Shown: piece by piece, positions 1-35,272 of the stretch
Layout: every line of letters begins with the position of its first letter
Position numbering within the stretch: the stretch's first letter is position 1
Assembly: GCA_017396825.1 (NCBI GenBank)
Contig: JAFQKR010000018.1
Span: 1 to 35,272 of the forward strand
Source: Clostridia bacterium
GTDB lineage: Bacteria; Bacillota; Clostridia; Oscillospirales; CAG-382
DNA: 35,272 nucleotides
Reading direction: 5' to 3'
Position numbers and translations under genes: made by a program
Notes under the pieces: generated by a model
The model's input: the letters and a program-made list of their open reading frames with translations, nothing else
The model's database searches: none
Told to the model about the DNA's origin: nothing

Positions 1-36
1 TACTGTGAGCCGAGGTTCGTTTTGAGCGAAAAAATA
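1..36 (+). repeat. 3' end of a dispersed structured repeat (partial copy)
   Basis: Bases 1-36 match 35220-35255 in the same orientation with one difference (g at 26 against a at 35245). The match starts at base 1, so the 5' part of this copy lies outside the window. It includes the GCC-GA-GGTTCGT arm and the following TTCGTT-ttg-AGCGAA hairpin of the fuller copy at the right edge. No coding capacity is visible. Confidence 0.8.
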
Positions 37-47
37 TAAAAATATAT

Positions 48-80
48 AAAAATTTCGGGAAAATTTTCCCCGAAATTTTT
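48..80 (-). terminator. Probable intrinsic terminator of the BaiN-like flavoprotein gene
   Basis: Arms AAAAATTTCGGG (48-59) and CCCGAAATTTTT (69-80) pair perfectly, and the loop AAAATTTT is itself self-complementary. Read on the minus strand, the stem is followed by a long T-rich tract (about 27-50). This suits termination of the leftward gene ending at 170. The symmetry would also allow function on the plus strand. Confidence 0.6.
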
Positions 81-137
81 CACTTTATAGTAACTATATT
101 TTCTTTTTTCGTGTTCTGTGCCTTTGTCAGCGGTCTG

Positions 138-167
138 AGCCGTAGGCGTGGTCGCCTACGGCTTTTT
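138..167 (+). terminator. Intrinsic terminator for a rightward transcript
   Basis: Perfect 11-bp stem AGCCGTAGGCG / CGCCTACGGCT with loop TGGT, followed by TTTTT. The T-run is on the plus strand only, so the hairpin would end a rightward transcript entering from the left edge, possibly one containing the repeat at 1-36. It sits directly beside the stop codon of the leftward gene. Confidence 0.7.
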
Positions 168-3574: not shown

Positions 3575-5560
3575 TTATCTGGGAGGACGCGCGCCACCGC
3601 CCATTCCGCCGCCAGAACCATAAATGGCGGTGGTCATATTTATAGTGGCAAGAGTCGTACCGCCGGTTTTAGTAGTGTTTTGGGCAAAGCCGTTAGAGTC
3701 TACCCCTGAAACGTTTGCTCCTGCAACAAGTGTATAGGTATTACCGCTTTGAATACCGGGTGCTGTAACTATCGCACACTGATAGGATTTTTTACTTGTG
3801 AAGGACACTATAACCTTCCCTGTGCTGTCACAAACCGCAAAGGAGGTACCTGCACTTTGGGTAGAAAAGGTGGATAGAATCGAGCCTTGGTTTTGTGCAG
3901 TGGAGAAGTTTTGCGCCATAGAGGACGTACCAAGTGCCACAAGCACGCCGCCCGTAACGGTAGCACTGCCGTCAAAGTCGAATATACCGTTGCCTCCGCC
4001 TGTAGGACCGCTTACAAGAGTAACGCCTCCGCTGACGGTTATCTTGCCATTGGAATCGATGCCGTCGCCGCCTGAATTAACCAGCAGATACCCACCGGAA
4101 ATGATTATCTCAGCTGTGGTAGCGCTGAATCCCTCAGAGCCGCCTACGGCGTTAAGTGCATCATCCGAGGAAACCACAGAGATGGTACCGCCGGATATAA
4201 GTATACGTGCCGCCTCGATGCCCTCGTAACTTTTCGTGATGTTCATTGTACCGCCGGATATCGCCAAGTCGGTGCTGGCGTGGACGGCGTCGTCGCCGCT
4301 GGCTAGTGTAAGATTACCACCGGTTATATTAACCGTGTTGTTGGAGTGGAGACAGTCGTCACGGCTGTCAAGGCTGTAGGTTCCGCCGGATATAAGTATA
4401 TCAGAGCCCGCCTTCATAGCCTTATAGGACTGAGTGGCGTTGTTTAGCATTGTTCCGCTGCCACCGCCTGCTTTTACGGTAATAGTGGTATTATTGGATT
4501 TTATAATCGTTTCCGCTTGTATGCCGTCAAAGCCCGCAGTGATGTTAACGGTGCCGCCCTCGAAATAGATATAACCACGGGTGGTGTCCTCAGTATTGTC
4601 GGAAACAATACCGTTACTTCCTGCGTTTATCTTAACAGAACCGCCCGTGACCTTTACACAATCCTTGCCGCCGAGAGCTGTGGATTTGGAGGTAACGTCA
4701 AGAGTGCATCCCGCAACGATAAGATTATCCTTGGAAACCACGCCGTGCTTGTAGTTACCCTTAACGGTAAGCTTACCCGTGCCGTTTATAGTAAGGTCGC
4801 CAAGGCTGAACACGGCGCCGTCAACGGTGGTAGTGCCGTCGGTAAACACGTACGAGGTGCCGTCTGCAAGACTGTTTACAGTACCCACCTTAGCGGTGAT
4901 AGTAACCTTATCGGCTTCCTTAACGTAGATGGCAGGGCCTTTGCTGTTGTTTATCAACACGTTGTCAAGGACAAGCTGAACCTCTTCCTTTACGCCTACC
5001 TCTACTATAACCTTTCTGTCTGTAAATCCACCCGTAAGCACGTGTGTACCGGCGGTGGTAATGTATATATCACCCGTAGGCGCGGGGGTTGGCGCAACAG
5101 AACTGTCCTCAGCCTTGGAGCTTGTATCTTCGGGCTTAGAACTTACGTCCTCAGCCTTGGAGCTTGTATCCTCGGGCTTAGAACTTGTGTCCTCAGCCTT
5201 GGAGCTTGTATCCTCGGGCCTTGAACTTGGTTCATCGAGAGCGCTGCTGTCATCGGGGACAGTAGTGCTGTCACCTGCCATGGAAGAATCGTCAACAGAA
5301 GCATTTTCGGAAGTATCATCAGACCCCTCCGAGGAAGATGGCTCACTGCTATCGTTCGGAATAACCACAGGGTCACCCTGAATAACACTTACTACGTCGG
5401 ACTCGTCATAACTACCGTCAACGTCGTTTTTATCAAAGGAAAAGTCCATCCCCTGAGTAGGCGCAGTGGAGGGGAGGTCGGAACTTGCATCTCCGCAAGC
5501 CGTAAAAAACGCGGTAAGCACAAATATTAAGGTCAATACTAAAGCGATGGATTTTCTCAC
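3575..5560 (-). CDS. Beta-helix carbohydrate-binding-domain (DUF4353-type) surface lipoprotein
   Basis: Product of 661 aa. Lipoprotein signal with Cys22 (FFTACGD), then a long Ser/Asp/Glu/Pro linker (about 25-160) containing a seven-residue repeat SSKxEDT. The rest (about 165-650) is many short repeats such as ISGGT, INGTG and ITGGNLTL, with alternating strands of a right-handed parallel beta-helix as in the DUF4353 'carbohydrate-binding domain' family. The tail is Gly-rich (GSGGGMGGGARPPR). It is expected to sit on the cell surface; ligand or catalytic activity is unknown. GTG start at 5558-5560 overlaps the upstream TGA (GTGA) and has AAGGAG at 10 nt, so it is translationally coupled to the DUF4956 gene. 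Last gene of the operon before the terminator at 3528-3563. Confidence 0.82.
   Translation of the reverse strand: MRKSIALVLTLIFVLTAFFTACGDASSDLPSTAPTQGMDFSFDKNDVDGSYDESDVVSVIQGDPVVIPNDSSEPSSSEGSDDTSENASVDDSSMAGDSTTVPDDSSALDEPSSRPEDTSSKAEDTSSKPEDTSSKAEDVSSKPEDTSSKAEDSSVAPTPAPTGDIYITTAGTHVLTGGFTDRKVIVEVGVKEEVQLVLDNVLINNSKGPAIYVKEADKVTITAKVGTVNSLADGTSYVFTDGTTTVDGAVFSLGDLTINGTGKLTVKGNYKHGVVSKDNLIVAGCTLDVTSKSTALGGKDCVKVTGGSVKINAGSNGIVSDNTEDTTRGYIYFEGGTVNITAGFDGIQAETIIKSNNTTITVKAGGGSGTMLNNATQSYKAMKAGSDILISGGTYSLDSRDDCLHSNNTVNITGGNLTLASGDDAVHASTDLAISGGTMNITKSYEGIEAARILISGGTISVVSSDDALNAVGGSEGFSATTAEIIISGGYLLVNSGGDGIDSNGKITVSGGVTLVSGPTGGGNGIFDFDGSATVTGGVLVALGTSSMAQNFSTAQNQGSILSTFSTQSAGTSFAVCDSTGKVIVSFTSKKSYQCAIVTAPGIQSGNTYTLVAGANVSGVDSNGFAQNTTKTGGTTLATINMTTAIYGSGGGMGGGARPPR
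5106..5231. repeat. 42-bp tandem repeat, three units, inside the lipoprotein linker
   Basis: Units start at 5106, 5148 and 5190 with few differences. Each encodes two heptapeptides (SSKPEDT, SSKAEDx). The period is a multiple of three, so unit gain or loss keeps the frame and changes only the length of the surface-exposed stalk. Confidence 0.85.
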
Positions 5561-35103: not shown

Positions 35104-35113
35104 TGACAAAAAA

Positions 35114-35131
35114 GGGAAGATGCGTCTTCCC
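35114..35131 (+). terminator. Short hairpin after the lipoprotein gene
   Basis: Stem GGGAAGA / TCTTCCC with loop TGCG, 10 bp after the stop codon and without a T-run. It directly adjoins, and may be part of, the structured repeat that follows. Confidence 0.5.
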
Positions 35132-35132
35132 T

Positions 35133-35255
35133 CAGCTTGATGACAAACCTTGTCATCAAGCTGGCAGAGTGCTGAGAAAGAGTGCAGACAAGACGAACCG
35201 AGGCGAAAACTGTACTAAGTACTGTGAGCCGAGGTTCGTTTTGAACGAAAAAATA
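35133..35255 (+). repeat. Structured dispersed repeat, fuller copy
   Basis: Shares 35220-35255 with bases 1-36. Elements: perfect hairpin CAGCTTGATGACAA / TTGTCATCAAGCTG (35133-35146, 35150-35163) with a 3-nt loop; a second structure ACGAACC-GA-GGC (35193-35204) pairing with GCC-GA-GGTTCGT (35228-35239) through a symmetric GA/GA internal loop, with GTAC-taa-GTAC inside; and an alternative hairpin TTCGTT-ttg-AACGAA (35235-35249) that competes with the second. No open reading frame. The 5' limit is uncertain and could include the hairpin at 35114. Confidence 0.7.
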
Positions 35256-35272
35256 GAAAAAATCAAAGAGAA

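Follow-up and report, generated by a model that had tools for sequence, protein, structure and literature searches.

The window analysed here is the whole of contig C88 (JAFQKR010000018.1, 35,272 nt) from a Clostridia bacterium assembly (GCA_017396825.1, here G000; 1.63 Mb, 99 contigs, 87% complete), and at each of its ends lies one piece of a short, structured, repeated element that is probably mobile. Positions 1-42 and 35220-35261 share 95% identity and the same orientation, a match between the window ends that an earlier note on this DNA had already reported. The two pieces belong to separate copies and to the two subfamilies found in this genome, A at the 3′ end (copy 1) and B at the 5′ end (copy 2). 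Searching G000 with the repeat, as the earlier note had proposed, returned 64 BLAST matches, far above chance and not just two; many of these are near-identical, and 26 span 124 nt or more of it. A covariance model gave 42 matches to the element in the same genome. Many further G000 contigs start or stop within the element, and the two breaks that bound C88 probably arose because assembly could not pass through so common a repeat. The left half of copy 2 and its left host hairpin are on contig C79, which shares exactly 141 nt with the window start. Copy 1 is truncated by the contig end, with ~85 nt of its right part absent; its right flank is on contig C51, where the partner hairpin copy AGGGAAGATGCGTCTTCCCTTTTT stands immediately past the right end of the element. 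The earlier note had placed the repeat at 35114-35255. The repeat is real, but 35113-35132 is a host terminator hairpin and the element starts at 35133 (Table 1).

Table 1. Element pieces and host hairpins in the window.
Feature	Position	Strand	Comparison or evidence
Left host terminator hairpin of copy 1, AGGGAAGATGCGTCTTCCCT; apparent target-site duplication	35113..35132	+	T-run beyond the other copy
Element copy 1, subfamily A	35133..35272	+	Compared with complete copies L004, L011 and L012
Hairpin H1 at left end, CAGCTTGATGACAA-ACC-TTGTCATCAAGCTG	35133..35163	+	Two-sided changes between subfamilies in alignment columns 3-6
Left terminal inverted repeat, forming the P1 5′ strand, CAGAGTGCTGAGAAAGAGTGCAGA	35165..35188	+	Pairs with the right end, TCTGTGCCTTTGTCAGCGGTCTG
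Stem P2, conserved RNA core, comprising a tandem GA/GA loop, a GARA/GA loop and a GUAC tip	35189..35243	+	Covariation and model matches
P4 5′ strand, AACGAAAAAA	35244..35253	+	Partner TTTTTCGT in the absent part; in-step changes between lineages, and folds
Element copy 2, subfamily B, right part	1..137	+	Overlap with C79
P5, an A+T-flanked hairpin of the element itself	48..82	+	Alignment pairs 141-178 to 154-165, with many two-sided changes
Right host terminator hairpin of copy 2, AGCCGTAGGCGTGGTCGCCTACGGCT, followed by TTTT	138..163	+	Left copy on C79, directly before the element

Complete copies are ~225 nt long, mostly 222-232 nt, with a maximum of 267 nt in the presence of a nested module. 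From left to right they consist of hairpin H1, the left terminal repeat CAGANTGCTGAGAAAGAGTGCAGA, stem P2, an A-rich P4 strand, hairpin P5, the second P4 strand and the right terminal repeat, which ends ...CTTTGTCAGCGGTCTG; the element ends are CAG...CTG. The right part of copy 2 runs accordingly from the P2 3′ arm through P4 and P5 to the right terminal repeat with its terminal CTG. P5 varies in sequence between subfamilies. The terminal repeats are inverted (consensus columns 34-57 pair with 219-241) and build P1, the closing stem of a three-way junction of which P2 is one arm; P1 also folds in other genera. The outer arm of H1 is similar to the right terminal repeat. H1 was our selection criterion for intact copies, and L089 and L092 are among the few older copies without it; H1 loops occur in both orientations. 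The element is short, contains no coding sequence and exists in many near-identical copies, which are traits of miniature inverted-repeat transposable elements (MITEs); each of the seven genomes in the genus carries copies. A second module, CACCCC...GGGGACCCC, replaces or adjoins the P2 tip in L079, L084, L085, L087, L090 and L091; it also occurs elsewhere in these genomes and resembles a separate small repeat that is nested inside the element. Tandem arrays of elements, with units of ~190-227 nt, occur at L355 (G605:C84:50200-52300; five units of ~227 nt), L337 (G004:C24:55600-56900), L105 and L106.

At the loci examined, the element adjoins a locus-specific hairpin on its left and a second copy of the same hairpin on its right, typically with an A-run before the first and a T-run after the second. 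Six of the genus's seven genomes supplied 66 intact copies for which both flanks were available, and we compared these flanks with control flanks shifted outwards (n = 178). Of the 66 copies, 57 were bounded by direct repeats 17-37 nt long, which were hairpins in nearly every case; none of the controls were. Perfect hairpins of at least 7 pairs were present at the left end of 62 copies and at the right end of 62 copies, as compared with two and one of the 178 controls, respectively. The duplicated hairpin is usually an intrinsic terminator. One insertion in G003 has an empty counterpart: in a related species, G001, the orthologous spacer lacks the element and contains one hairpin. Since the empty site has a single hairpin and the flanking repeats match, the hairpin appears to have been duplicated when the site was filled; read from these sequences, the target is the hairpin, which is duplicated in full. 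Most copies that lack matching flanks are still bordered by two hairpins, one per side, that differ from each other (L091, L097, L133, L139, L149, L151 and L158), as would be expected from recombination between copies, and hence from genome rearrangement. In four copies (L007, L070, L147 and L168), the loop of one hairpin copy is reverse-complemented relative to the other, perhaps as a vestige of hairpin processing. With gene calling that was crude, we saw no consistent bias in the orientation of the element relative to genes, and so no signal of an RNA in 3′ untranslated regions.

The top strand of the element has a conserved fold. In the window's 3′ copy, the minimum-free-energy fold (z = -8.5 relative to shuffles) contains the stem drawn in the earlier note, ACGAACC-GA-GGC paired with GCC-GA-GGTTCGT beneath a GTAC-TAA-GTAC tip, and the covariation test suggested there for this GA-flanked stem came out in its favour. 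Among 35 diverse copies from the genus, 11 of the 20 P2 pairs had a two-sided change (46 cells, as compared with 11.9 in shuffles; 0/500 shuffles), an example being the replacement of CAAG...UUUG by UGGG...CCA. Two-sided changes affected 16 of 20 pairs in 20 sequences from other genera of the family and G006 (0/500 shuffles), and 17 of 20 pairs across the family, order and class (229 cells, as compared with 48.5; 0/500 shuffles). In these two wider sets, G-U cells outnumbered A-C cells by 19 to 0 and by 66 to 8, respectively, an excess that would mark the top strand as the folded one. P1 and P4 are not in the model as pairs and provide an independent check of the fold. By our own reading, a three-way junction with P1 and P4 is present in 11 of 13 predicted folds, and the P4 strands change in step between lineages (GCAAAAAG/CTTTTTGC, GCGACAAG/CTTGTCGC, GCACAAAA/TTTTGTGC and GCATAAAG/CTTTATGC). 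The plain complementarity of the P4 strands is modestly above that of shuffled sequence (7.9 versus 7.0 of 9), and hence it is the compensatory examples that bear the argument. The conservation of the top-strand fold shows selection on a single strand that folds, be it of RNA or of DNA. The fold is probably needed as RNA or single-stranded DNA of the top strand, either for mobilisation or for a function that maintains the element in the population.

The earlier note had also proposed that competing hairpins give the repeat switching potential. The complementarity of TTCGTT and AACGAA, and the A-to-G difference between the copies, are in the sequence as described, but no pair of this alternative stem had a two-sided change, a result equal to that of its shuffles. 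We rejected an RNA switch with two mutually exclusive folds: the main stem covaries and the alternative stem shows no covariation. The pairing of CTCAGC with GCTGAG, likewise suggested, is not a feature of the family, C 35131 and T 35132 being host sequence and subfamily B having TCAAGC in that place. The broader proposal of a structured RNA family or a mobile repeat holds in both of its parts, in that P2 covaries and the element appears mobile, with a duplicated target and an empty site.

The core of the element extends well beyond the genus. A first covariance model detected it in the family (24 of 63 genomes, 6 of 13 genera); a second detected it in the order (39 of 394 genomes) and in the class (43 of 391 genomes, 30 of 223 genera), with at least 12 matches in some genomes, all from metagenomic, incomplete assemblies and with rough E-values. 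In a sample of the phylum, our own genome alone matched among 398, indicating that the model rarely gives false matches. Named records with the element come from goat and sheep gut and from related Clostridia and Oscillospiraceae assemblies (RGIG1823, RGIG1834, RGIG6331, RGIG6501 and SIG636). No family of Rfam 15 reached its threshold over the element, with either curated or relaxed thresholds, and there was no match in 2.9 million viral contigs, phage records or plasmid records to the element, a class-level relative or the core patterns. The fold appears to be unnamed in the literature consulted, but structured-RNA surveys may have listed it earlier without a name. In related genera, the core stands beside apparently the same gene in at least two species (L259/L264; L255/L257; L265/L270; L260-L262); shared neighbours identified by eye are rpsI, a glutamate dehydrogenase gene, an RNase Y gene and a tRNA gene with a CCU anticodon. 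Some copies in related genera may be old and fixed.

We consider it likely that the repeat is a non-autonomous, MITE-like mobile element of ~225 nt whose top strand folds into a conserved three-way junction and whose target-site duplication is a terminator hairpin, because the hairpin is duplicated in most intact copies and is single at the empty site. The combination of terminal inverted repeats and a target duplication points to a DNA transposase acting in trans. Such a transposase would recognise both the ends of the element and a palindrome that serves as target when extruded in cruciform shape; with each strand cut at the hairpin base and then filled in, a full hairpin would remain on either side. 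The duplication spans exactly one palindrome, of any length or sequence, suggesting that the enzyme reads the shape of the extruded hairpin. Insertion would be harmless, with termination surviving in the right hairpin copy, since that copy retains the U-tract/T-run.

Several observations weigh against this interpretation. No autonomous element with matching ends was found among the few transposase families searched for (rve, DDE_Tnp_1, Transposase_mut and HTH_38), our own genome being incomplete; rve and DDE_Tnp_1 were not found in that genome, and Transposase_mut was not found in the genus. Hairpin duplication is seen clearly only in this genus; more distant lineages have a constant 5′ hairpin in the element, and duplication is not evident there. 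Class-level alignments were built by fitting to the model, which biases their pair counts in its favour. Within the genus, G-U cells are about as frequent as A-C cells after leaving out pairs for which G-U is the commonest form, so that strand polarity is not informative from the genus data and is visible only in the wider alignments. Three candidates for a parent element were rejected: an IS3-family insertion sequence in G002 (L240, G002:C13) is nested inside a copy of the element, the ends of the IS30 copies in G001 and G002 are unrelated to those of the element, and a 1.27-kb "pair" at L236 consists of two elements flanking an ordinary gene. In other families (L325, L333, L338, L345, L362 and others), copies can share one unvarying 5′ hairpin, for example AAGGGATTGTAGC...GCTACAATCCCTTT. 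The arm of this hairpin is similar to the element's 3′ end, as though the element had absorbed a palindrome of its terminal repeat.

The constant 5′ hairpin that belongs to the element in those families, together with the presence of hairpins on both sides of nearly every copy, could mean that the flanking hairpins are variable outer arms of the element and not host terminators. We consider this very unlikely, given that the hairpin differs by locus yet is the same on the left and right within a locus, that the empty site has a single hairpin, and that many of the hairpins are terminator-like, with a preceding A-run and a trailing T-run. The same duplications bear on a fixed regulatory RNA with alternative folds, be it a riboswitch, an attenuator or an element of 3′ untranslated regions. 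The complex covarying structure would suit such an RNA, as would copies in genus g2 that seemingly stand beside the same genes in at least two species. Target duplications, many near-identical copies next to unrelated genes in both orientations, and the lack of covariation in the alternative hairpin largely refute it for this genus, leaving it highly improbable.

Two rivals accept mobility and differ in its mechanism. In a retroelement resembling short interspersed nuclear elements (SINEs), the structured RNA would be reverse-transcribed in trans and inserted at terminator hairpins. Group IIC introns favour sites just past terminators, and the most conserved feature of the element is its top-strand RNA fold, not a coding sequence; the G-U excess and the failure to find common transposases in our own genome agree with such a route. 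Nevertheless, whole-hairpin duplication and terminal inverted repeats are products of DNA transposition, and to our knowledge group IIC introns do not duplicate terminators; we regard this origin as unlikely. No Rfam intron family matched the element, and reverse transcriptase was not searched for. The subterminal hairpins and top-strand structure also recall a relic of a palindrome-associated, single-strand transposon of the IS200/IS605 type. That family makes no target duplication, and the 17-37-nt duplications at 57 of the 66 copies make this the least probable origin of all.

The preferred interpretation, a MITE-like element mobilised by a transposase in trans, joins three things that are usually separate: a MITE, a complex RNA and the choice of target by hairpin shape. 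A covarying fold present in about one tenth of the sampled genomes of the class, sometimes in dozens of copies, is absent from Rfam 15. A transposition system that reads a palindrome rather than a sequence, and a non-coding element that keeps an RNA fold, both become testable. A further-reaching proposal, which we put forward only as a doubtful possibility, is a class-wide mobile family in which the structured RNA is part of the mobility mechanism and terminators are safe, self-repairing landing sites; if this were true, the RNA might be a retro-inserted, SINE-like RNA or a guide or scaffold for some recombinase. The duplicated terminators also have a practical use as barcodes for joining contigs broken at the element. 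They order the contigs C79, C88 (the window) and C51, and many other G000 contig ends pair likewise. Elsewhere in the window, tandem repeats with 15-nt and 42-nt units lie within open reading frames at 2400-2510 and 5105-5230.

Group IIC introns resemble the element in inserting at intrinsic terminators; the element differs from them in its duplicated hairpin and terminal inverted repeats. The insertion sequence IS1630 of Mycoplasma fermentans, a member of the IS30 family, is a published precedent in that it duplicates inverted repeats at its target, with duplications of 16, 23, 25 and 26 bp and terminal repeats of 27 bp (Calcutt et al. 1999, cited in PMC3317919). Our element likewise has a variable-length inverted repeat as its target duplication. 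By contrast, IS1630 encodes an IS30 transposase, its host is distant, and it has no described conserved RNA fold; no IS30 transposase with ends matching those of the element was found in our own genome, which lacks an rve domain, or in G001 and G002. Bacterial MITEs (reviewed in PMC10969869) share with the element its small size, lack of coding sequence, terminal inverted repeats, target duplication and many near-identical intergenic copies. The element differs in that its parent was not found, in that the duplication is a whole terminator hairpin, and in that its core fold covaries across a class. MRSC-65-2, a candidate mobile or repeat motif from structured-RNA surveys (PMC11109978), has a covarying structure and dozens of copies per genome, as does the element. 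MRSC-65-2 is one long stem, whereas the element combines a three-way junction and asymmetric internal loops with duplication of a hairpin.
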